A stretch of 35,928 bases of DNA from Campylobacterales bacterium (GTDB taxonomy: Bacteria; Campylobacterota; Campylobacteria; Campylobacterales; Sulfurospirillaceae). The notes beneath the pieces were generated by a model, which saw only the letters and a program-made list of their open reading frames with translations, searched no databases and was not told the DNA's origin. This document shows positions 8,698-29,527 of this stretch, in pieces (position 1 is the first letter of the stretch; every line of letters begins with the position of its first letter). Where the stretch lies: positions 1 to 35,928 of the forward strand of contig JAJRPV010000013.1 in the NCBI GenBank assembly GCA_024280575.1, read 5' to 3'. The translations under genes were made by a program, and so were the position numbers.

Positions 8698-10194
8698 TTA
8701 TTTTCTCCTTTTTGATATTTGTGTTGCTAAAATCCCATATCCCATAACGGTAATCATTGGAAACAATGATGCAAAAGCAATTAGGCCAAAACCATCTATA
8801 AGTGGGCTTCTTCCTTCTATGTTTCCTGCCAAGCCTAGACCCAAAGCTGCTACGAGTGGAACAGTAACAGTTGAAGTTGTCACTCCACCACTGTCATATG
8901 CTATGGGAATGATATATTTTGGTGCAAAATAAGTTATTATAATTACTAAAATATATCCAGCTATTATATAGTAATGAATCGGATCTCCATGTACTATTCT
9001 GTATGCTCCTAGCGATATGCCAAAAGCCACGCCAATTGCTACTGAAATTCTTAAAATTAAACTGTTTATATTGCCCTCGCTTATCTCATTGGCTTTTGAA
9101 GCAATGGCTATAAGAGCGGGTTCTGCCATAGTTGTAGAAAATCCTATTAGAAAACCAAATATGTATATAAGTTGAACATTTTTCATATTTGTTAAGGATA
9201 GGGCAATGTTTTCACCTATGGGAAATAAACCTAATTGTAAACCCAATATAAAGGCATATAAACCGATTGTTACTAGCAAAATCCCGCTGCTAACTTTTGG
9301 AAGATGCGGTATGGGTTTTTTGATGATTAAATATTGAAAAAAGCCTATAACCAGGAGTATTGGTATAATATCTTTTGCAACATATAAAAAATCTATCAGT
9401 ATTTTTAAAAAAGTAAATTGACTATCTTTTGTAACTGCTGCTATAACTTTTGTAGCTATTTTACCTGTAGTTTCTATATCAAAAAAATTATAAACTATTA
9501 TTCCATAAATTTGTACAAAAATCATAGGTGTCAAAGAAGCAAATGCTATAAGACCAAATCCATCAATAGCTGGATTTCTACCTTTGATACTTGATGCGAG
9601 CCCTATTCCAAGAGCGGCTACAAGAGGGACGGTAACAGTCGAAGTTGTCACTCCACCACTGTCATATGCAAGTCCGATTATTTGAATAGGGGCAAAAAAT
9701 GTAGTTATTACCACTATAATGTATCCAGTTATGATGTAATAGTGTAGAGGATGTCCTAATAGAATTCTAAAAACTCCCAAAGATATGGCAAAGCCAACAG
9801 AAAAAGCGACACTTAAACGCAGAAAAAAAGAATCTATTCTCCCTCCACTTATAATAGAAGCCTTATCAGCGATTGCGATGAGAGCAGGTTCGGCAATGGT
9901 TGTAGAAAAACCTATAAAAAATGCAAAAAGCAGCAACCAAAAGAGTGATCCTTTTTTTGCAAAATCATTAGCGAGATTTTCACCAACTGGAAAAATACCT
10001 ATTTCCAAACCTCGTATAAAAATTGCCAAACCAAATATAATAATACATATTCCAATGATTATAGAGATTAAGTTTTCTGGCATTTTACCAATTACAACAA
10101 TCTGGAAAAATGCAACTACCGCTATAATAGGAAGCATATCTTTTGTAGAATTTTTTATGTCTGATAAAAAGATATGGATACCATTTAAAAACAT
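8698..10194 (-). CDS. DUF1538-family integral membrane protein with internal duplication
   Basis: A 498-residue polytopic membrane protein of the DUF1538 family, whose transported substrate is not established. It is made of two homologous halves offset by 256 residues: GFSTTIAEPAL at 95-105 recurs as GFSTTMAEPAL at 351-361, and YDSGGVTTSTVTVPLVAALG at 177-196 recurs exactly at 433-452. The DGFGLIAFASL block is also repeated (211-221 and 467-477). Such two-fold repeats with glycine- and threonine-rich loops are typical of transporters or channels, where the repeated loops often line the pathway. The gene begins one base after the stop of the flgS-like kinase and is followed within two bases by the PII-like gene and then a CBS gene. 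Confidence 0.88.
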   Translation of the reverse strand: MFLNGIHIFLSDIKNSTKDMLPIIAVVAFFQIVVIGKMPENLISIIIGICIIIFGLAIFIRGLEIGIFPVGENLANDFAKKGSLFWLLLFAFFIGFSTTIAEPALIAIADKASIISGGRIDSFFLRLSVAFSVGFAISLGVFRILLGHPLHYYIITGYIIVVITTFFAPIQIIGLAYDSGGVTTSTVTVPLVAALGIGLASSIKGRNPAIDGFGLIAFASLTPMIFVQIYGIIVYNFFDIETTGKIATKVIAAVTKDSQFTFLKILIDFLYVAKDIIPILLVIGFFQYLIIKKPIPHLPKVSSGILLVTIGLYAFILGLQLGLFPIGENIALSLTNMKNVQLIYIFGFLIGFSTTMAEPALIAIASKANEISEGNINSLILRISVAIGVAFGISLGAYRIVHGDPIHYYIIAGYILVIIITYFAPKYIIPIAYDSGGVTTSTVTVPLVAALGLGLAGNIEGRSPLIDGFGLIAFASLFPMITVMGYGILATQISKRRK

Positions 10195-10195
10195 C

Positions 10196-11215
10196 TTATT
10201 TCTTAACTTTTATTTGGAATCTTTTAGGATTGTCTTTTATCTCAATAATACCATTGTGAGCTTTTATGATTTGCAAAGCTAGTGCCAAGCCTAAACCATT
10301 GCCTTTTGTTTTCGTTGTTTTAAATGGTTCAAAAAGTATGTTTTTATCTTCTATCTCTTTGCCATTGTCTATGATGTTAAATATATGATTTTTATCATCT
10401 ATTTTATAGTTTAGTTCTATTTTTCCTTCTTCTTGCTCGCTTTCTTCTATGGCGTCGATAGCATTAAATATTAGATTTTGAAATACTAAAGTAAGGAGTT
10501 CGAAATCACCACTTATTTCAATTTGTGGTAAATTAAAAATAAAATCTATATTTTTAGAATATGTATAAAAAGATATAGATTGTTCCATCTCTTGAGTTAA
10601 ATTCTCCAAAGAGAATAGATTTTTCTCTACATGTAGCCCTTTTGTAAAAAGAAGCGTAGCTTTGATTATTCTTTCAACTCTCCATATGGATTTTCTGATT
10701 TCCAAAACTATCGGTTTTGCACTGACATCAACTTTTTTAAAAAGAGTAGAGGCTAAAAGAGAGACTGATCCTATGGGGTTTCTTATCTCGTGAGAGAGAT
10801 GGGCAGCCACCTGACCCATAGATATAAGTCTTTCCTGTCTTTTTTCTTCTGTTATATCAGTAGCGCTGATTATTGTTTTTTGGGCTTGTTTGATAATTTT
10901 GACTATAAAAAACAGATCATTGTATTTTATCTCTTTTAAATTTGGATTTTTAAGTATTATCTCTTTTAACCCACTTATTTTTTTTGCTTCAGAGTTTTGT
11001 AGAAAAAGCTCATCATTTTCATCAATTACCCATATTGCATTTGGTTGAACTTCTATGATTTGAGTGATAAAATTTTGTAAGGAAGCGTAAGAAGCATTGA
11101 GTTGCTTGTACTCTTTTTCTATGATATAAGTCTGGTTTATTAAGTCATTCAGACCTTTTTTAAAAGTCTCTTTTTCGTCTGCGTTTAAAGAATTTAATAG
11201 ATTTTCATCAATCAT
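10196..11215 (-). CDS. flgS: Sensor histidine kinase, FlgS-like
   Basis: A soluble 339-residue histidine kinase with no membrane segment. An N-terminal helical stretch leads into a PAS-like domain at about 45-120 (VQPNAIWVIDENDELFLQNS). The phospho-acceptor box AAHLSHEIRNPIGSVSLLAS has the active histidine at 142. The ATP-binding domain shows LIFNAIDAIEE (about 253), FEPFKTTKTKGNG and GLGLALALQII (about 316). The lack of a transmembrane sensor, the length and the overall wording fit FlgS, the Campylobacterota kinase that activates FlgR and so sigma-54-dependent flagellar genes. No response regulator or flagellar gene is adjacent, so the FlgS assignment rests on remembered similarity. The ATG lies at the foot of a 9-bp hairpin. 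Confidence 0.75.
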   Translation of the reverse strand: MIDENLLNSLNADEKETFKKGLNDLINQTYIIEKEYKQLNASYASLQNFITQIIEVQPNAIWVIDENDELFLQNSEAKKISGLKEIILKNPNLKEIKYNDLFFIVKIIKQAQKTIISATDITEEKRQERLISMGQVAAHLSHEIRNPIGSVSLLASTLFKKVDVSAKPIVLEIRKSIWRVERIIKATLLFTKGLHVEKNLFSLENLTQEMEQSISFYTYSKNIDFIFNLPQIEISGDFELLTLVFQNLIFNAIDAIEESEQEEGKIELNYKIDDKNHIFNIIDNGKEIEDKNILFEPFKTTKTKGNGLGLALALQIIKAHNGIIEIKDNPKRFQIKVKK

Positions 11216-11240
11216 GTAGGCTAATCTTTTTTAGCCTACA
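11215..11240 (-). promoter_or_regulatory. Hairpin abutting the flgS start codon
   Basis: On the transcript TGTAGGCTA pairs with TAGCCTACA around an eight-base loop. The right arm ends with the first base of the ATG, and no clear Shine-Dalgarno sequence stands between the stem and the start. The structure could limit ribosome access or act as a short leader. It lacks a following U run and so is not an intrinsic terminator for sdhE. Confidence 0.45.
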
Positions 11241-11245
11241 TTATA
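11240..11245 (-). promoter_or_regulatory. -10 element upstream of flgS
   Basis: The minus strand reads GTGTATAATG with a perfect TATAAT 24 bases upstream of the kinase ATG, after a stretch of A residues. Transcription would begin just inside the hairpin arm. This would let the kinase and the genes after it be expressed apart from sdhABE. Sequence match only. Confidence 0.45.
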
Positions 11246-11259
11246 CACTTTTTTTGGTT

Positions 11260-12138
11260 TTAAGCAAAGGTAAATTTTGTGATATTGTGTTTAATTCCTA
11301 ATTTATCAGGATCTATTCCAAGGGCTAATCCTACCATTTGAGGCATATGAAGAATAGGAATCGATACATCCTCTCCCATCTCTTTACTTATATTTTTTTG
11401 CTGAACATCAAGTCTTAGATGACATAAAGGGCAGGGTGTTACCATCGTATCTGCTCGATTTTCTATGGCATCTAACATAGCACCACCGGAAATTTTATTT
11501 GCTGTTTTTGGAGCTTGGAGTTCTACATGAAAACCGCAACATTTATTTTTATGGCCATATTCTACACTGTTACCGCCAAGAGCAACTATAAGTCTATCTA
11601 GTGAAGTTGGTTTGTATGGATCTTCATTTCCATTTGATGCACCATGAACTTCTTTTGGCCTTATATTGTGGCACCCATAAAAAGGAGCAATATATAAATC
11701 TTTCAAAGGTTTTTTAACTCTTGAAGCGATAGCATCTATACCATAATCGTCAATCAAGGCATATAAAAAATGTTTAATTTGGGATGTTCCTTTATACTCC
11801 AAACCTACTTCATTTAGTTTGTCATTTACTCTCTTTTTTAGTTTTTCATCATGGTCGAGTCTATATTTTGCAGTTGCTAGGTTTAATTGGCATGTGTTAC
11901 AAACAGTTACGATAGTCAGGCCTCTTTTTTCTGCGTAACATATATTTCTAGCATTTAAAACCAGTGATAAAAAATCATCATAATCTTGCATATGCGAAGC
12001 TCCACAACATGTAGCTTCAACAAGTTCAACTAATTCAATACCAAATTCTTGAGCTATTGCAAGAGTTGACTGCATAAGTTCCGGAGTGCTTTGTTTTGGC
12101 GTACAACCTACAAAAAATGCATATTTTAAATTTTCCAT
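11260..12138 (-). CDS. sdhE: Succinate dehydrogenase/fumarate reductase subunit E, HdrB-like CCG protein
   Basis: A 292-residue protein with two cysteine-rich CCG repeats like the B subunit of heterodisulfide reductase. The first uses FVGCTPKQS, EATCCGASHM and TVCNTCQLNL; the second uses FYGCHNIRP, KNKCCGFHVE and TPCPLCHLRLD. In SdhABE-type enzymes this subunit replaces the usual haem membrane anchor and passes electrons between the iron-sulfur subunit and the quinone pool, with membrane contact through amphipathic helices. No transmembrane segment is seen, as expected. It follows sdhB by nine bases. In Campylobacter jejuni and Wolinella the corresponding subunit belongs to a methylmenaquinol:fumarate reductase (MfrE). 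Confidence 0.9.
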   Translation of the reverse strand: MENLKYAFFVGCTPKQSTPELMQSTLAIAQEFGIELVELVEATCCGASHMQDYDDFLSLVLNARNICYAEKRGLTIVTVCNTCQLNLATAKYRLDHDEKLKKRVNDKLNEVGLEYKGTSQIKHFLYALIDDYGIDAIASRVKKPLKDLYIAPFYGCHNIRPKEVHGASNGNEDPYKPTSLDRLIVALGGNSVEYGHKNKCCGFHVELQAPKTANKISGGAMLDAIENRADTMVTPCPLCHLRLDVQQKNISKEMGEDVSIPILHMPQMVGLALGIDPDKLGIKHNITKFTFA

Positions 12139-12147
12139 AAAGATTCC

Positions 12148-13128
12148 TTACTTAAATTTTACTGTTGAACAGCTCTTGATTAGTTTATCAACTTCATCAA
12201 GTTTTTGTGATTTTGGCATTTGCCAAGGCATTATCAATTTTCCATTTTTAAACATATGAATGGCTTCGGGTACATGTTTTAAAACTCCTATATTTCCCTC
12301 GGAGTATCTTACAAGTTCGCCTTCATCCAAAAATCCATGTTTTGCAATAGAATCTTTAAACCCGACAGCGTGCCTGGTAGCTACATTGTCTTTTGCCATG
12401 TTTTCTTCAAAGATTTGATTATGCAGTTTTGTAATCTTATCTATAGGTGAAAGGTCTTTTGGACAAGCTTCGGCACACTCATAGCATTTAACACAATCCC
12501 AAACCCCTGAACTTTCTTGATTGACAATGTCAAGTCTATCTCTTTTTGCATTATCTCTTACATCAACATTAAACCTAAAAGCCTTTAAAAGTGCGGCAGG
12601 TCCTATGTAATCTCCATTTACATCAACTGACGGACAAGCGAAAAAACAGTTCCCGCATTGTATGCAATAATCTGCCTCCTCCAACCTATCTGCCTCCTCC
12701 TGACTTATAATGTTTTTGGATTTTGGATGTGCTTCAATATTTGCCACTAAAAATGGTTTTACACTACTGTATTTTTGCCAAAATCTCTCTTTGTCAACCA
12801 CCATATCTTTGATAGCACTTTTCATATCTTGTGGTTCAAGTACTAACTCATATCCGAAAATCTCAATTAAATCAAAAACTCTTTCTTTGCAAGATAGTAC
12901 TGGTTTATTGTTTACTTTGATGGCACAACTGCCACAGATTCCATGACGACAACTTCTTCTATAGCTAAATGAACCATCCCTTTCCCATTTGATTTTATTT
13001 AATATGTCAAGAATAACTTCATCTTGAGCAACATCAAATGAAAAATTTTGATAATAAGGCATGCGGTCAGTATCTTTGTTGTATCTAAAAACTTTAAAAT
13101 TTACTTTTTTTGTATCATATATTTTCAT
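12148..13128 (-). CDS. sdhB: Succinate dehydrogenase/fumarate reductase iron-sulfur subunit
   Basis: The 326-residue iron-sulfur subunit. Cys60, Cys65, Cys68 and Cys80 (in SCRHGICGSC and LSCKE) form the plant-type [2Fe-2S] site. CIQCGNCFFACPS near residue 154 and CVKCYECAEACPKD near 213 provide the ligands of the other two clusters. It relays electrons between the flavoprotein and subunit E. At 326 residues it is longer than the roughly 240 of classical SdhB; the extra length is mainly C-terminal, as is usual in the E-type complexes. It lies eight bases after sdhA and nine before sdhE, in one operon. Confidence 0.93.
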   Translation of the reverse strand: MKIYDTKKVNFKVFRYNKDTDRMPYYQNFSFDVAQDEVILDILNKIKWERDGSFSYRRSCRHGICGSCAIKVNNKPVLSCKERVFDLIEIFGYELVLEPQDMKSAIKDMVVDKERFWQKYSSVKPFLVANIEAHPKSKNIISQEEADRLEEADYCIQCGNCFFACPSVDVNGDYIGPAALLKAFRFNVDVRDNAKRDRLDIVNQESSGVWDCVKCYECAEACPKDLSPIDKITKLHNQIFEENMAKDNVATRHAVGFKDSIAKHGFLDEGELVRYSEGNIGVLKHVPEAIHMFKNGKLIMPWQMPKSQKLDEVDKLIKSCSTVKFK

Positions 13129-13136
13129 CTCTACTC

Positions 13137-14867
13137 CTAATATGTTCGCGCAGTTGGCTTGTATTTGCCAATTGTCACTGGCTTATAATCTACTTTTATA
13201 CCGCCTCTTTTATCCATATATCCATAGGTGTGATTTAAAAAGTGCTCATCATCTCTTTTTGGAAAATCATCTCTGAAATGAGAACCTCTGCTTTCTTTTC
13301 TGAGGATTGCACCCTCTACTATAAACGCAGAAAAGTCAAGCATATGTCCAAGTTCGATAGCGTCTTGTAAATCGGTATTGAAAATTTTCGACCTATCATC
13401 GATACCTATATTTTTATATCTTTTTTTGAGTTTTTTTATGATTTCTTTTTGTTTTAAGAGTTTTTCTTCTGTCCTGAATACTCCGGCATTTTCGGTCATA
13501 CTGTTTTGTAACTCTTTTCTAAGAACGGGCACTCTCTCTTTCCCGCAAGATGATAGAAGTTTGTCTATCTCCTCTTCCATTTTCTTTGCATCATTGATAT
13601 CTGGATTTTTATGGGTTAAGAATTTATCTCTCTCTAAATCATCTATGATAGTTTGCCCTACATGTCGCCCATAAAAAATGGCTTCAAGCAAAGAATTGGC
13701 CCCTAGTCTATTTGCTCCATGTACACTTACACATGCACATTCTCCGGCAGCGTAGAAGCTTTTTACATTATTTTCTATATCATATCTGACTCTACCGTGA
13801 ACATCGGTTGGAATTCCACCCATGGAATAATGTGCAGTAGGAGATATTAAAATTGGCTCTTTTATCATATCAAGTCCAAGAAAAGTAAGAGCTAAATCTC
13901 TAAGTTCTGGTAGTCTTGACATTATTTTTTCTTTTCCCAAATGTGTTAAATCAAGATATACGGCATTTTTATCTTTTCCTACACCTTTACCGGCTAGTAT
14001 TTCTCTTGTGATTGATCTACTTACTAAATCACGAGGTCCGAGTTCTAATTTTTCAGGAGCATACTTTTCCATAAATCTTTCGCCTTCGGAGTTAAAGAGT
14101 TTTCCTCCTTCGCCTCGTGCAGCTTCACTGATAAGTATGCCGGTACCTGCAAGCCCTGTTGGATGAAATTGCACAAATTCCATATCTTTTAGAGGAATAC
14201 CATGTCTGGCAACAATAGAAAGTCCATCTCCCGTATTTGCATGTGCATTAGAATTTGTTGCATAACTTCTTGCATATCCACCGGTTGCAAACATAACCGC
14301 TTTTGCATAAAAGATGCCTTTTTGTCCTGTTTTGATATTGTACGCAACGACACCGCTTACTATTTTATCTTTGTTTCCGCTATATATAATATCTGCAACA
14401 TACCACTCATCCCAAAACTCAACCCCATCTCTGTGAGCCTGCTCAAAAAGTGTTTGCAAAAGGGTAAGCCCAGTTCTGTCTTTTGCATAGCATGTTCTAG
14501 GAAAAGATTGTCCGCCAAAAGGCCTTTGTGCGATTGTGCCATCCTCTTCTCTGCTAAAAGCTGCTCCCATATGCTCAACCCATCTGATTGTCTCCGGTGC
14601 GCTACTACACATAAGCTCAACTGCTTCTTGATTTGCTAGATAATCACTACCTTTTATCGTATCAAATATATGAGATTCAGTACTGTCATCCCCTTTTAAA
14701 GCTGCATTTATCCCGCCTTGTGCAGCTCCTGAATGACTTCTGAGTGGATGAAGTTTTGTTAAAACACAAACATGTTTACCACGACTTTCTAACTCTCTAG
14801 CCGCCGCCAAACCAGCCAAACCAGCACCAACTATAACAGCATCATAACGATGAAATGAAACACCCAT
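13137..14867 (-). CDS. sdhA: Succinate dehydrogenase/fumarate reductase flavoprotein subunit
   Basis: The 576-residue FAD subunit that converts succinate and fumarate. The dinucleotide fold opens at residue 9 with [34 protein letters not shown] (about 43-58) carries the histidine that binds FAD covalently in this family. Further signatures are [35 protein letters not shown] and [15 protein letters not shown]. The gene starts with ATG behind AAGGAAG, and the FAD fold begins almost at once, so there is no twin-arginine signal. The periplasmic MfrA of Campylobacter jejuni and Wolinella has one; this enzyme should therefore be cytoplasmic. It heads the operon, with a TATAAT box 29 bases upstream. 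Confidence 0.94.
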
Positions 14868-14956: not shown

Positions 14957-15838
14957 TTATTTGTATAGCATTTTAAAGTCTGACAATTCATAAAGTTCAA
15001 AATTGTTTGATTTGTTTAGTATAAGTTCTTTGGAAAATCCACTTTTTGAAAAGAGGATGTATTTATCTATATTTAGATTTGCTTTTTTGCATTTGTTTTG
15101 TAGGGAGTTTAAGACATTTTTGCATATTTTACTGTTTCTCCACTTTACTTCTCCGGCAATTTTTTGTTTATTGGTTTCTATTAAAAGATCAATTTCTATA
15201 TTTTTATCCCAATAACTACCACTTGATAGTATTTTTTCATCTTTATATTTTTTTACGATGATAATGTTGGATAATTTTTCAAACTCTAAGCTAATATATT
15301 TTTCCAGATATGGCTCAATTGATGAGAAAGTTACTTCTTCCTTATTGCTTAGTAAGGGTGCTATAAAAGTGAACCAAAATCTTGTAAAATTATTGCTTAT
15401 ATGGATCTTGTCTTGTATTTTATATCTTCTTAATGATTTTTTTAAAAGTTGTTTTTTGTTGTTTTTTAGCGGTTTCTCTCTGCTTTCTTCTTTTTTGATT
15501 GTTTCACTTTGGTAAAGATGTCTAAATAGTTCTTTTCCTTTCCCTTGAGGTAGATTTTCTTTGATGTAAACACTATAATTTTTTCTATCTCCTCTAGATA
15601 ATCTTGTGAGTATTTTTTCTATTAGTTTTTGATTTTCTATATTTTCATCATATATAAAACACTCTTTTAGTACATGAATTTTATCTATAATTTCTTTTTT
15701 TATGATTGTTTGAAAATCAAGTGATAAATTAAGTTTGTTTGATAAGGGATAACCATCCAAAATAGAAAAATATTCTATAGTTTCTTGGATGTCTAAATAA
15801 GGAAATTTTTGATGGAAATTTTTAAAATTTTGAGTCAA
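14957..15838 (-). CDS. DUF234 / PD-(D/E)XK-like protein
   Basis: A 293-residue protein rich in Lys, Ile and Asn. The C-terminal half matches the DUF234 pattern: KIHISNNFTRFWFTFIAP (about 144-161), then GSYWDKNIEIDLLIE (about 208-222) and IAGEVKWRNSK (about 227-237). The spaced D, E and K residues in the last two segments resemble a PD-(D/E)XK nuclease core. DUF234 is usually fused to an archaeal-type ATPase; here no Walker motif is present, so the function is open. There is no ATG in the frame: the only plausible start is the TTG at 15836-15838 that directly follows the trkH stop codon in the same frame, preceded by GGAAAAAG inside trkH. Translational coupling or stop readthrough would explain this. 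Confidence 0.7.
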   Translation of the reverse strand: MTQNFKNFHQKFPYLDIQETIEYFSILDGYPLSNKLNLSLDFQTIIKKEIIDKIHVLKECFIYDENIENQKLIEKILTRLSRGDRKNYSVYIKENLPQGKGKELFRHLYQSETIKKEESREKPLKNNKKQLLKKSLRRYKIQDKIHISNNFTRFWFTFIAPLLSNKEEVTFSSIEPYLEKYISLEFEKLSNIIIVKKYKDEKILSSGSYWDKNIEIDLLIETNKQKIAGEVKWRNSKICKNVLNSLQNKCKKANLNIDKYILFSKSGFSKELILNKSNNFELYELSDFKMLYK

Positions 15839-17284
15839 TTAAAACTTTTTCCAAAAAGTTTTACTTAAAAGAATAAAAACAGTATAGCATTCCAATCTTC
15901 CTATAATCATAGCCGCAGAGAGTAGAAGTTTGTCATACCAAGAAAAAAATGTATAGTTTTCAGCAGGCCCAACAAGCGAAAAACCTGGTCCAACATTGCC
16001 AACAGTTGTCATGGCAGTGCTTATTGCTGTCATCTCGTCATAACCCCTGGCATATAAATATATCATCACAAAAAATATTGTCAAGATAAAGAGTGAGAAA
16101 AATCCAAAAATTGAATTAATAATATTGCTTTTTATAGGTTTTTCATCTATAAATAGAGACATTATAGAATCTGGCTTTAATGATCTTCTTATCTCTAGCG
16201 ATATATTTTTAAAATAAATGATATATCTTATGACTTTTGCACCTCCTGCGGTTGAGCCGGCATTTCCACCTATAATCATAGCTATTAACAAAAGAGCAAT
16301 TGAGAGATGACTCCATGAAGAGTAATCTATTGAAACAAAACCCGTTGTTGTCATGATGGAAACTACCGTAAAAGTAGAATGCATAAAATCCTTATATAGA
16401 GTTGAGAAACTATTTAGATTTGAGAGCGTAAGAAAGAGAGATAAAACGGCTAAAAGAATGATATACCACTTTACCTCTTCTATTTTATAGCCCTTTAAGT
16501 TTCCACTTAAAAATCTTATATGAGCCAAAAAGTTAATGCCAGAGATTACCATAAAAAATATCGTAGTCCACATAATTCCATCATTATTTGCCCAAAATCC
16601 TATAGATGTATTTTTAGTAGAAAAACCACCCGTAGAAACAGTTGCAAAAGCATGATTTATGGCGTCAAACCAGTTCATGCCAAAAAGTTTTAAACATAAA
16701 ATATTTAATATGGTAAAAAGTAGATACACACCCCATAATTTATTTGCCGTATCTTTTATTTTTGGTGTTATTTTATCAGTAGATATACCTGTAGATTCGG
16801 CTTTAAAAAGACTAAGTGAGCCACTTGGATTTATCAAAGGAAAGAGACCGACACCAAGCACTATAATTCCCATGCCTCCAATCCAGTGCATAAGACTCCT
16901 GTGCAGGAGTATATTTTTGGGTAAATCTTCGATATCACTAAATACTGTGGCTCCTGTTGTTGTAAATCCACTTATTGCTTCAAAAAAAGCACTTGAAAAA
17001 TCAATACCAGTTTGAAGATACAAGGGTATGGCTCCCCCAATGCCTAATAAAATCCAAACAAAATTGACTGAAACTATACTCTCTTTTATACCAAAAGACA
17101 TTTTATAATTTTTTAGTGCCATAAAGATGATAATATTTAGTGCAAATAAACTAAAAATGAAATAGAACGATGAATTTATATTTTCATTGTAGTAGTAGCC
17201 TAATCCAAGAGGAATAAGAAAAAGAAAAAATACAATAATGCCAACGGCAGAGGTAAATTTAAAAATACTTCTTATATTAACCAT
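15839..17284 (-). CDS. trkH: Trk potassium uptake protein, membrane subunit TrkH
   Basis: The potassium-translocating subunit, 481 residues, the usual length. The four pore-loop filters of the family are all visible: GFTTTGATVFSD, ATVSTGGFSTKNTS, IMTTTGFVSIDY and MTTVGNVGPGFS. Between them lie the expected membrane helix pairs. I take the ATG at 17282-17284, which overlaps the trkA stop as TAATG; a TTG six codons upstream is also open. The stop at 15839-15841 is followed directly and in the same frame by the DUF234 gene. TrkH needs the cytosolic gating ring TrkA, whose gene immediately upstream is interrupted. Confidence 0.95.
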   Translation of the reverse strand: MVNIRSIFKFTSAVGIIVFFLFLIPLGLGYYYNENINSSFYFIFSLFALNIIIFMALKNYKMSFGIKESIVSVNFVWILLGIGGAIPLYLQTGIDFSSAFFEAISGFTTTGATVFSDIEDLPKNILLHRSLMHWIGGMGIIVLGVGLFPLINPSGSLSLFKAESTGISTDKITPKIKDTANKLWGVYLLFTILNILCLKLFGMNWFDAINHAFATVSTGGFSTKNTSIGFWANNDGIMWTTIFFMVISGINFLAHIRFLSGNLKGYKIEEVKWYIILLAVLSLFLTLSNLNSFSTLYKDFMHSTFTVVSIMTTTGFVSIDYSSWSHLSIALLLIAMIIGGNAGSTAGGAKVIRYIIYFKNISLEIRRSLKPDSIMSLFIDEKPIKSNIINSIFGFFSLFILTIFFVMIYLYARGYDEMTAISTAMTTVGNVGPGFSLVGPAENYTFFSWYDKLLLSAAMIIGRLECYTVFILLSKTFWKKF

Positions 17285-18621
17285 TAAATTTGATGTATCC
17301 AATTTGACAAGATTTCTGAATTTTCATTTTTGCCAATAGCAACAATCAAATCATTTTCCATAAAACTTTCTATTGTGTTAAATGGTAGTATTTCTCTCTC
17401 TCTTTGTATAAAAAATATGCCCATATTTTCAATCTTTGAAGATATTTTTGGTGATGAATTAATTAAATCTGATGTAGCAAATATTTTTCTAAGCATTAAA
17501 ATTCCTTCTCCACCGCAAAATTGTCTTTTTATGACTATTTTAGAGGATTCTATTTTTTCCAATATGGAGTAGAATACATTTATCTTCTCGCCTCGTACAA
17601 CTTCTAGATTAAGGTTTCTCATAAGTTTTGAATATGCTATATCGTTATTTATTGTTATGACCTTATGTATGCCATGATCTCTAGCCTCCATGCATTTAGT
17701 GATATTGTATTCGTCATTTTCTGAGGCAACAATAAACAAATCAGGAGTTATGCCGTCACTTTCTAACATGTGGTCAGAATCATATGTGCTTTTAATGACT
17801 GTTACTTTATCTTGCAGGATTAGATTGGCTCTCTAGCATTTTTTCAAATCTTTATCCACAATTTGTATATTTAAATCTTTTTTAACTAGTACTTTTGCTA
17901 TTTCTAAGCCTAAATCATTAGCTCCGAATATTACACAATTTCTTATTTCATTTCTTGTGTCATCATCTTGATAAATACTGCTTTGCAACTCTTTGATGGC
18001 TTTTGGGTAGGCGTAAAAATATGTTAAATCACCAGGGTTAAGCATATCCTCTTCGGTTGGGATGTAAAATTCACCATCTCTTTCTATGCCAATAGTGATA
18101 ATTTTGCGATTTAATTGATTTGTAATTGAAGATATAATTTTTGCTTCAAAATCACTAGGAATTTTTATAGATACCAGAAGAGCTTTTGTATAATCAAATG
18201 ATTTAACATTTCTTGTTATCGGAAAATCTACAAGATATTTAAATGGTTGAGCGGCTTCAAAAGCTGGAATTACAAAATCATTGATTCCTAACCTCTCTTT
18301 TACTAAGTCATCTGCAAAAAAACTATTTTTTAATCTAATTATTTTTTTATCTACTTTGGTAATTTTGTCTATGATGAGGGACGCTACCATATTAACTTCA
18401 TCAGAGTCAGTAACTCCGATAAAAAGGTCTATTTCTGAATCGACAGATAAGTAAGTATGTGGGATTTCTATATCTCCACAAATCGCTAAAACATCCAAAT
18501 TCTCTTCTATCTTTTTTATGGCATCTTCGTTTTTATCAATAATTGTAACATCATTGTGAACCATAAGATGCTTAGCTATCATATAGCCAACTTTACCTGC
18601 TCCGGCAATAATTATTTTCAT
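17284..18621 (-). pseudogene. trkA: TrkA potassium-channel gating protein, interrupted by an in-frame amber codon
   Basis: The coding frame runs through 445 codons, normal for TrkA (458 in Escherichia coli), but codon 263 is TAG (17833-17835). Before it, 262 residues give the first RCK unit (GAGKVG at 7-12, nucleotide-contacting acidic TIIDKNED) and the start of the second (CVIFGANDLGLE, then IVDKDLKKC). After it, in the same frame, come 21 codons reading RANLILQDKVTVIKSTYDSDH and a 161-residue segment from an ATG at 17767-17769 that completes the second RCK unit. A single-base change such as GAG to TAG explains the break. If real, the cell makes a TrkA lacking most of its second RCK unit, possibly plus a reinitiated C-terminal piece. 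It has its own TATAAT box and AAGGAAT ribosome site. Confidence 0.88.
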
Positions 18622-18853: not shown

Positions 18854-19956
18854 TTATTTATATTTTACAGATTTATGTGTAGGATCAAACCTAAATGCAA
18901 GAGTATTTTCCAAAATTCCAAAGAAAATCATAAATGTTATGAAACTACTTCCTCCATAACTGAAAAATGGCAAAGGAACACCAACGACAGGAGCTAGGCC
19001 TATGGTCATAGCAATGTTAACACTAGAGTACACAAAAATCAAAAAACTGATGCCCGTTGTAATAACTCTAGCAAAATAATCATCTTTTAATTTGAAATTT
19101 AGCGTTATTAAATGTATAACTAAAAGAGCATAAGTAAATATCAAACTAAGTGCTCCCCAAAAACCAAATCTTTCTACAAAGTAAGCAAATATGAAATCAC
19201 TAGTTGAGATTGGTAAAAATTTGTAGCGTGTTTGAGTAGCTTCTTTGGAAGCTTTTCCACTAAGACCGCCTGATCCAATTGCTATTATTGACTGTTTAAC
19301 ATGATAACTAGGTTTTTCTGCCATAAAATCAGTAATTCTTTTCTTTTGATAATCATGTAAAGAATTAAATAAAAAAGGGCCACTTATACCAATAATTATA
19401 AAAAGTGTAATCCAAATTTTTTTATTTACCCCAATTATAAAAAGAGTACCGTATCCTACAAGAAGCAGCACCATGGCAGTTCCAAGATCAGGCTCTTTTG
19501 CGATAAGGACAAAAGGTAAAAGTATATATATATTAAGTTTAAAAAAATCTTTCCAACTGTATCCGTCTGCATCAGGCGGATTTTGTTTTATCAGATATGC
19601 TAACATTAAAATAAACATCGGCTTAAATATTTCAGAAGGCTGTATGGTAAAATGCACAAATGGAATGTCCAGCCATCTTTTGGCTCCAAGTCTTGATACA
19701 CCAAAAAAATCAACACTAAGAAGAAGAGTAACTGTTATCCAATAGAAAAAAGGAATCAGCCATTCAAATTTTTTAATGGGAATAAGGAAAAAAATAAAAA
19801 TGCAATGAATCCTATGCTAAAATATATAATCTGTTTTTCTGCGAGTGTTGTATTTACTTCTGAGATGAGATAATAAGACATAGCTATTACAGGTAAAATT
19901 AAAATAGGTATTAAAAAATCAAAATGAGTTAAAATTCTTCTGTCAATTTGTAACAA
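18854..19956 (-). pseudogene. rodA: Rod-shape peptidoglycan glycosyltransferase RodA (MrdB), frameshifted
   Basis: RodA is the SEDS glycosyltransferase that polymerises lipid II for cell elongation and is normally essential in rods. Two frames together give one normal RodA of about 367 residues. The first fragment (19956 to 19756) starts at TTG behind TAAGGG and ends LFPLKNLNG. The second frame continues KKFEWLIPFFYWITVTLLL, RLGAKRWLDIPFVHF, TIQPSEIFKP, AKEPDLGT, STSDFIFAYFVERFGF and FFSYGGSS. The switch lies at the run of six A (plus-strand T 19769-19774): seven A would restore PLKKFEWLIP. An ATG-started downstream piece exists only from 19657. The rest of the gene is intact, suggesting a recent indel, an assembly error or slippage. 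Confidence 0.9.
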
Positions 19957-26059: not shown

Positions 26060-26164
26060 ATGAAGAGAGTTTGGTTGATTAATAAAAAATTGCTACTGAT
26101 TTTATGTAAAGGTAAAGAGGAATTTTTACTAGGCCTTTGCCTGGAAAACTACATAATTAAATAA
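26060..26164 (+). CDS. Possible 34-codon ORF in the pyrH leader
   Basis: A short open frame from ATG 26060 to TAA 26164. The peptide is basic and hydrophobic (MKRVWLINKKLLLILCKG at its start). No ribosome binding site precedes it, and its second half runs through leader repeat A, so it may be non-coding. Recorded because it is one of a chain of short frames before pyrH. Confidence 0.12.
   Translation: MKRVWLINKKLLLILCKGKEEFLLGLCLENYIIK
26114..26146 (+). repeat. pyrH-leader repeat, copy A (partial)
   Basis: Within the 305-bp gap 26020-26324. It has GAGGAATTTTTA followed by a stem-loop (26129-26144) pairing CTAGGC with GCCTGG, including one G:U pair. It lacks the GCTTTAGT box of the other copies. 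The bases before it (26020-26113) show no feature beyond a short unsupported ORF. Confidence 0.5.
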
Positions 26165-26177
26165 GACATTCTATGCA

Positions 26178-27050
<873 letters not shown>

Positions 27051-27363: not shown

Positions 27364-29527
27364 ATGATATTAGAGAACTTATTAGAAAAAATAGATAAAT
27401 CAAAAGATATAGAAACTTCGATATCTATTTTAAAAAGTTTTATTGAGATAACACCACTTGTCCAAAAAGCTATTGACTTTTCTGTTAAACAACACCACGG
27501 ACAATATAGAAAAAGCGGAGAAGAGTATGTGAATCATCCTATTCTTGTTGCTTCTCTTGTTGCTTTTTATGGTGGTGATGAGGCGATGGTCGTTGCTGGT
27601 TTACTTCATGATGTTGTTGAAGATACAAATTGTGATATAGAGACTATAGATAGAGATTTTAACAAAGAAATAGGTGGCTTAGTTGAAGGCTTGACAAAAA
27701 TTATGGAAATTCGTGATAGTGAGTTAATTCCTTCGTATTCCAATGAAAGAATTATCTCTTCAGCTTTAACATTTAGAAAAATGCTACTTGCTTCGATCAG
27801 TGATGTTCGAGTTTTGGTTATTAAGCTTTGTGATAGGCTTCATAATATGATGACACTTCGTAGTTTATCACCTTCAAAACAGAAAAGAATTAGCGAAGAA
27901 ACGGTGGTTGTCTATGCTCCAATAGCGCATAGACTTGGTATCTCATCAATTAAAAAATATCTTGAAGATAAAAGTTTTTTTTTACATAATGCCATTAGAA
28001 TATAAAAAAATAGATGATTATATCAATGAGCATAAGCAACAACTTCAGTTGAGATTAAACCATTTTGCAGCAAAAATAAGAACCATGATGTTGAAAGATG
28101 GATTTAACGAGGATGATTTTACTATTATAAAACGAATTAAGCACCACTATTCTATATACTTGAAGATGCAACGAAAGGGCATCTCTATAGAAGAAGTTTT
28201 GGATCTTTTAGCAATTAGGGTAATTGTTGAGAAAAGTATAAACTGCTATAAAGTGCTAGGATTAATACATCAGCAATTTAACCCGTTAATTGCTAGATTC
28301 AAAGACTATATTGCTATTCCTAAAGAAAACGGATATCAAACTATACACACTACTGTATTTGACAATAAATCAATCATTGAATCACAAATTAGAACTTACG
28401 ATATGGACAAAACTGCTGAATTTGGGTTGGCAGCTCACTGGAAATATAAAAGTGTCGGACTAAATCCAAAGTTAGATTGGCTAGATGAATTAAAGAATCA
28501 AAATGAAGAAATTGAAAATATTGAAGAATTTTACCAAATTGCGAAAGATAATTTATACAGCGAAGATATTGCTGTATTTTCACCAAAAGGTGATATTTTT
28601 TCTCTTCCAAGAGGAGCGACTGTTTTGGATTTTGCGTATGAAGTTCATACGGAAATTGGAATATTTGCAAAAGAAGGGTATGTTAACAAACAAAAAGTTC
28701 CTCTTTTAACAGAGCTCAAAAATGGAGATATTGTTAGAATTATCACTTCGGAAGAACCCAAGTATAGATGTAGCTGGATTAAAAGCGTTAAGACTGGCAA
28801 GGCGATAAATACAATTCGTACCAATTGTAGACAAAAAATTAGAGAGATAAATCAGAAAATTGCTATTAGTATATTAACAAGTACTTTTAATTCAAAAAAA
28901 TCAAATATACCATTGTGGCTAGAAAAAGAAAATTTAACAAAAAAAGTATTTAAGATTGCTACAGATTCTATTTATTTTAAAGATATTGTAAATGCTTTGA
29001 AGAAATACCCTAAAGCTGATAAATTAATATTTCCATTGTTGAATTTTGATCGATATAAAATAAAAAAACAAAAATTTGAAAATATAGTAGTATATTCAAA
29101 TCAAAATATTTCAAATGTATATTTTGATTTTTGTTGTCATCCAAAAAGAGGTGATGATATAATGGGTTTTAAAAAAGGAAGCGATGTTTTTGTGCATCAT
29201 AAACTATGCGATAGAGCCTATAATTTAATGGAAAAAAATGAAACTATGGTTTTTGTTAAATGGACGAAAGATGCACCTGAACGATATAAGTTAATTGTAA
29301 GTTTAGAAAATAAAAGAGGAGCTTTAGCAAAATTTTTGGCATATTTAGCTAAAATGCAGATAAACTTAGTAACAATTGAGCTTGGAAAATCGGAAGAGGG
29401 ACATATAGATTTTTTTGAAATGATATTGGAAATTCCAGATAAATCAGTAAAATCAATTAGAAATAATTTAAAATCAAAATATCGTATTATAGAATTTGTT
29501 TCTGCAAACGATGCTTATAAAAGTTAA
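27364..29527 (+). pseudogene. spoT: Bifunctional (p)ppGpp synthetase/hydrolase SpoT, frameshifted at a T9 run
   Basis: The two frames together make one normal RSH protein of about 720 residues. The first (27364-28005) holds the HD hydrolase: HHGQYRKSGEEYVNHP, GLLHDVVEDT and LCDRLHNMMTL. The second, open from 27935 to 29527, holds the synthetase (FKDYIAIPKENGYQTIHTTV), a TGS domain (FSPKGDIFSLPRGATVLDFA) and a C-terminal ACT domain. The break is at nine T residues, 27975-27983; eight would give YLEDKSFFYIMPLEYKK in one frame. If the sequence is right, translation yields a 213-residue hydrolase, and the synthetase part would need reinitiation (for example at ATG 27989) or slippage. Campylobacterota usually have this as their only long RSH enzyme. 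Confidence 0.92.

Follow-up and report, generated by a model that had tools for sequence, protein, structure and literature searches.

An in-frame TAG codon in trkA of a Campylobacterales draft genome is most likely an assembly error and not new biology

False gene breaks that stem from uncorrected assembly errors are a known general phenomenon. A natural division of a TrkA protein is documented as well: in TM1088A/B from Thermotoga maritima, each of the two proteins carries a complete PF02254 domain, and the stop and start codons of their genes overlap and are accompanied by an internal ribosome binding site (PMC4380455). Here, we compare with these systems a trkA gene whose frame contains a TAG codon. 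It lies in a window of 35,928 nucleotides (the whole stretch of DNA analysed), which is one entire contig (contig 14) of a draft genome with 86 contigs and 2.06 Mb. The original prediction had named a point mutation, a split two-part gating ring and suppression as possible readings. We consider it very probable that the TAG arose as a wrong base in a draft assembly rich in errors, and that the cell itself carries a normal trkA of full length.

The interrupted trkA frame

The trkA frame runs on the minus strand from 18621 to 17284 and comprises 445 codons, which are open apart from the TAG at 17835-17833. Beyond this codon, 182 sense codons follow in the same frame before a TAA is reached. The respective features are as follows.

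17833 to 17835, minus strand: TAG in frame with trkA, as its codon 263, read from the sequence letters
17833 to 18621, minus strand: upstream trkA piece of 262 aa, first RCK unit and start of the second
17284 to 17832, minus strand: downstream trkA piece, continuing the frame for 182 codons and TAA
15839 to 17302, minus strand: trkH in a single frame that overlaps with the trkA 3' end (PF02386, E 3.5e-60)

The TAG with its 182 following codons is thus present as originally described. The same holds for the statement that no indel is needed: TrkA homology is unbroken on either side of the TAG, with 81% identity to the nearest relative over residues 1-444. Within the upstream piece, Pfam matches are found for TrkA_N (3-119) and, slightly below the cut-off, for TrkA_C (158-214, E 1.1e-5). 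When the frame is read through, NAD_binding_7 matches residues 227-318 and a second TrkA_N match spans the stop position, such that the break at residue 263 is located inside the second nucleotide-binding fold. That fold starts around residue 227, which places the TAG ~35 residues into it; the prediction had given some 30 residues into the second RCK domain.

Also the ATG predicted 21 codons after the stop exists. It is found at 17769, i.e., 22 codons past the stop with 21 codons between, and opens an ORF of 161 aa that begins within the second RCK domain. Searched on its own, this ORF gives no Pfam hit at E <= 0.001, and no AGGAG-like stretch was seen when the 31 bases upstream of the ATG were inspected by eye. 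This bears on the proposed split gating ring, in which the upstream piece would assemble with a separately started downstream piece. We regard it as exceedingly improbable and do not uphold this part of the prediction: the in-frame ATG 22 codons beyond the stop and the natural two-subunit TrkA of T. maritima (PMC4380455) are set against a break within the second nucleotide-binding fold, the downstream ORF without Pfam match, the AGGAG-like stretch not seen and 0/26 split sequences among the aligned relatives. It is likewise very unlikely that the TAG is real and that TrkH in this strain operates with a TrkA that ends within the second RCK domain, to which the piece from the internal ATG might be added in trans.

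Adjoining trkH, a 293-aa ORF with TTG start and a DUF234 domain (PF03008) occupies window positions 14957-15838 (minus strand). We take it to resemble the C-terminal part of DUF234 ATPases, and the genes beyond it, on the side away from trkH, presumably encode fumarate reductase subunits as judged from their translations. As to trkH, the same-genus relative G003 has a similar ORF next to its trkA.

Codon 263 in related genomes

We searched for trkA in 41 genomes (own and 40 relatives), which provided matches in 27 genomes with the own one counted in; within the genus, 7/9 relatives show a match. The alignment around codon 263 contains 26 sequences from 25 relative genomes (two from G017), where weak matches (among them L035, L037 and L038) have been left out. 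A search of plasmid proteins was set aside, as it returned distant TrkA only (61 records, every one below 60% identity).

The comparison with close relatives, which had been suggested as a check, gives a clear picture: all 26 aligned relative sequences have a sense codon in the respective column, none shows a stop and none is split. Codons are GAA (8), AAA (6), CGT (4), AAC (2) and one each of CGC, AAG, ATG, GAG, CAT and CTG. The column is variable outside the genus, while the seven same-genus sequences show GAA (6) and AAA (1). Since GAA, found in 6/7 same-genus relatives, is two changes away from TAG, an origin of the TAG by a single substitution requires GAG in the own lineage, which counts against a substitution error; GAG makes up 127/381 Glu codons in 13 window genes.

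Among the 181 codons downstream of the stop, those that differ from the nearest relative comprise 39 amino-acid-changing and 68 synonymous ones. For comparison, two intact relatives differ from each other within the same stretch by 43 amino-acid-changing and 70 synonymous codons. That is, codon differences give no sign of decay, i.e., of relaxed constraint, in the trkA half after the stop. An established pseudogene was therefore rejected, given that the stop is absent from the aligned relatives and constraint after it is not relaxed.

The absent decay would fit a recent event, and a real recent nonsense mutation in the strain or in part of the population is the main rival to an assembly error. 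It would cut TrkA to its first RCK unit and leave TrkH without its normal nucleotide control. That the trkA lesion is a substitution and not an indel is in line with such a mutation, and trkA is not known as essential, which also counts for it. Nevertheless, we consider it unlikely given that the stop occurs in 0/26 aligned relative sequences, that the neighbouring trkH is found in one frame and that the ambient lesion rate of the assembly alone predicts two to three lesions for the window.

Lesions across the assembly

This lesion rate was determined for a sample of the own assembly, comprising the window and 400 kb of the same genome. The reference set consisted of 978 ORFs (>=120 aa) from roughly half of G009, a complete genome of the same genus. 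The strict count keeps G009 ORFs that match at >=45% identity over 75% of their length, which results in 188 genes for the own assembly, 116 for G003 and 37 for G006. These thresholds were tightened after the looser count was known and applied equally to all three assemblies.

A strict frameshift or in-frame stop is observed for 19/188 conserved genes of the own assembly, compared to 0/116 in G003 and 0/37 in G006. That is, under the same test the lesion rate lies above that of the sister assemblies (Fisher's exact test against the pooled controls, 0/153: p = 1.1e-5; without the window, 17/167: p = 1.3e-5). The window (2/21 genes, namely trkA and spoT) does not differ from the remainder (17/167; p = 1). 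The aligned coding sequence totals 208.6 kb and contains 22 strict lesions, which corresponds to about one per 9.5 kb. For the 25.8 kb aligned within the window, two to three lesions are thus expected, and the strict count finds the two named. With looser criteria, 24/188 own genes are affected versus 1/85 in G003, such that this control is not entirely free of lesions. Its lone lesion falls in a stretch that runs antisense to an adjacent gene and that we regard as a falsely extended 5' end of the reference ORF. A first small count (10/50) included stops upstream of likely true starts, and an earlier looser listing (27 rows among 199 genes) contained double counts as well as some doubtful events.

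Beside trkA, two broken genes are located in the window:

18857 to 19956, minus strand: rodA, frameshifted with a net shift of -1; residues 1-79 of the G003 protein match in one frame and residues 56-367 in another
27364 to 29527, plus strand: spoT/relA, frameshifted; ORFs 27364-28005 and 27935-29527, break at or near a nine-T run

The rodA frame changes within the first 80 residues, with T6/T7 runs nearby. The gene is single-frame in G003, and the break is visible only with this relative as reference; the strict count misses it, such that rodA is a third window lesion outside that count. For spoT, the gene is whole in 5/6 same-genus relatives and was not found in G004, while G025 from the same order shows two partial matches on two contigs. 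Window positions 26116-26347 (plus strand) hold short direct repeats, one of 33 nt (91% identity; spacing 79) and one of 37 nt (73% identity; spacing 83). They precede an apparent pyrH and extend into its start; with so few copies they may be due to chance.

Of the 22 strict lesions, 10 are in-frame stops and 12 are frameshifts, 11 of the latter with a net loss and one with a net gain of one base. Some frameshifts lie beside runs of 6-9 equal bases and others have no run above 3-4 bases in their surroundings. This composition counts against an assembly error in trkA insofar as 11/22 strict lesions are deletions and only 10/22 are in-frame stops, three of which fall in two small multi-lesion genes that may be really decayed. 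At 4/10 strict in-frame stops the reference residue is Glu, where 14% would be expected from window codon usage. With numbers this small, it may at most hint at a G-to-T error bias.

The in-frame stops comprise TAA (5), TAG (3) and TGA (2) and are thus not restricted to TAG. A reading in which TAG only is decoded as an amino acid (amber suppression or reassignment) would not explain this mixture. It would account for the trkA frame being open and conserved past the TAG and for secD, which likewise shows an in-frame TAG; in contrast, prfA (release factor 1) is uninterrupted and above cut-off, and 7/33 window ORFs end in TAG, the trkA piece being one of them. The search for an amber suppressor tRNA, which had been proposed along with the suppression reading, revealed no CTA anticodon among the 33/33 typed tRNA matches and tRNA-Sec, a set that is incomplete, with tRNA-Ile(GAT) and tRNA-Ala(TGC) absent from the matches and the assembly 94.8% complete. 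Given the intact prfA and the three kinds of stops, we attach next to no probability to suppression. Pyrrolysine was rejected, since the search of the genome with a PylS model gave nothing above cut-off and no CTA anticodon was found. The tRNA-Sec (TCA anticodon) is located at G000:C3:14867-14959 (L075), and given its presence some in-frame TGA codons elsewhere in the genome may be real selenocysteine codons.

To see which conserved genes are broken, 20 lesion-bearing reference proteins (19 of the looser 24 as well as rodA) were searched against NCBIfam, 2/20 being without match. Genes with strict lesions identified this way are rpoB, a UvrD/PcrA-type helicase, feoB, secD, spoT and uvrC as well as a TrpE-type gene, glyA, a PBP1A-family gene and mannose-1-phosphate guanylyltransferase. 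The search of the genome yielded a single rpoB, which is divided over two frames and shows two net one-base deletions (L100, G000:C17:20001-39911, at about 10095-14223), one of which has no run above three equal bases around it. In 8/9 relatives rpoB is in one piece, and G005 has it on two contigs. The secD gene contains a TAG in the own genome and is without stop in 8/9 relatives, where G005 shows a short end only. Both rpoB and secD are genes that a living cell could hardly lack. Lesions are thus found in indispensable genes, namely the split rpoB and the secD with its TAG.

Because the lesion rate is high here and not in the two sister samples, and because the lesions hit indispensable genes, we favour an assembly error for trkA. 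Judged from the assembled letters and not from raw reads, it is most likely that the TAG base itself is among these errors; its TAG has the same standing as the rpoB and secD breaks. The original argument that the stop is not a homopolymer artefact is right in that a substitution within good TrkA sequence is seen. It does not make the TAG real, since the assembly has in-frame stops and run-free deletions in needed genes. Similarly, the proposed GAG-to-TAG point mutation is retained as a base substitution, while lesion rate and rpoB/secD breaks favour its origin in the assembly. By analogy with known TrkA behaviour, the cell would encode a full-length TrkA, built of two RCK units in tandem, that acts together with the product of the adjacent trkH. 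When a conserved gene of this assembly shows a lone stop or frameshift, an error is thus likelier than biology, and other broken genes from it should first be weighed against the genome-wide lesion rate.

Comparison with known systems

With TM1088A/B, the locus would share that two polypeptides come from one TrkA locus, if both pieces were made (PMC4380455). It differs in what characterizes that pair, i.e., complete PF02254 domains in each protein, a stop codon that overlaps the next start and an internal ribosome binding site (PMC4380455). Here, the fold is broken such that the trkA pieces do not both hold a complete PF02254, no ribosome binding site was seen, and the ATG is 22 codons past the stop instead of overlapping it.

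The likeness to false gene breaks by uncorrected assembly errors comprises scattered frameshifts and stops that affect conserved and essential genes and are not seen in sister assemblies. Their source may lie in technology, coverage or mixed strains. Finally, compared to TrkA of the same genus, i.e., a tandem two-RCK regulator of TrkH, the own protein reaches 81% identity across residues 1-444 and is likewise encoded beside trkH. The difference is the TAG at codon 263, where the aligned relatives have a sense codon, and this stop is most likely ordinary and not new biology.
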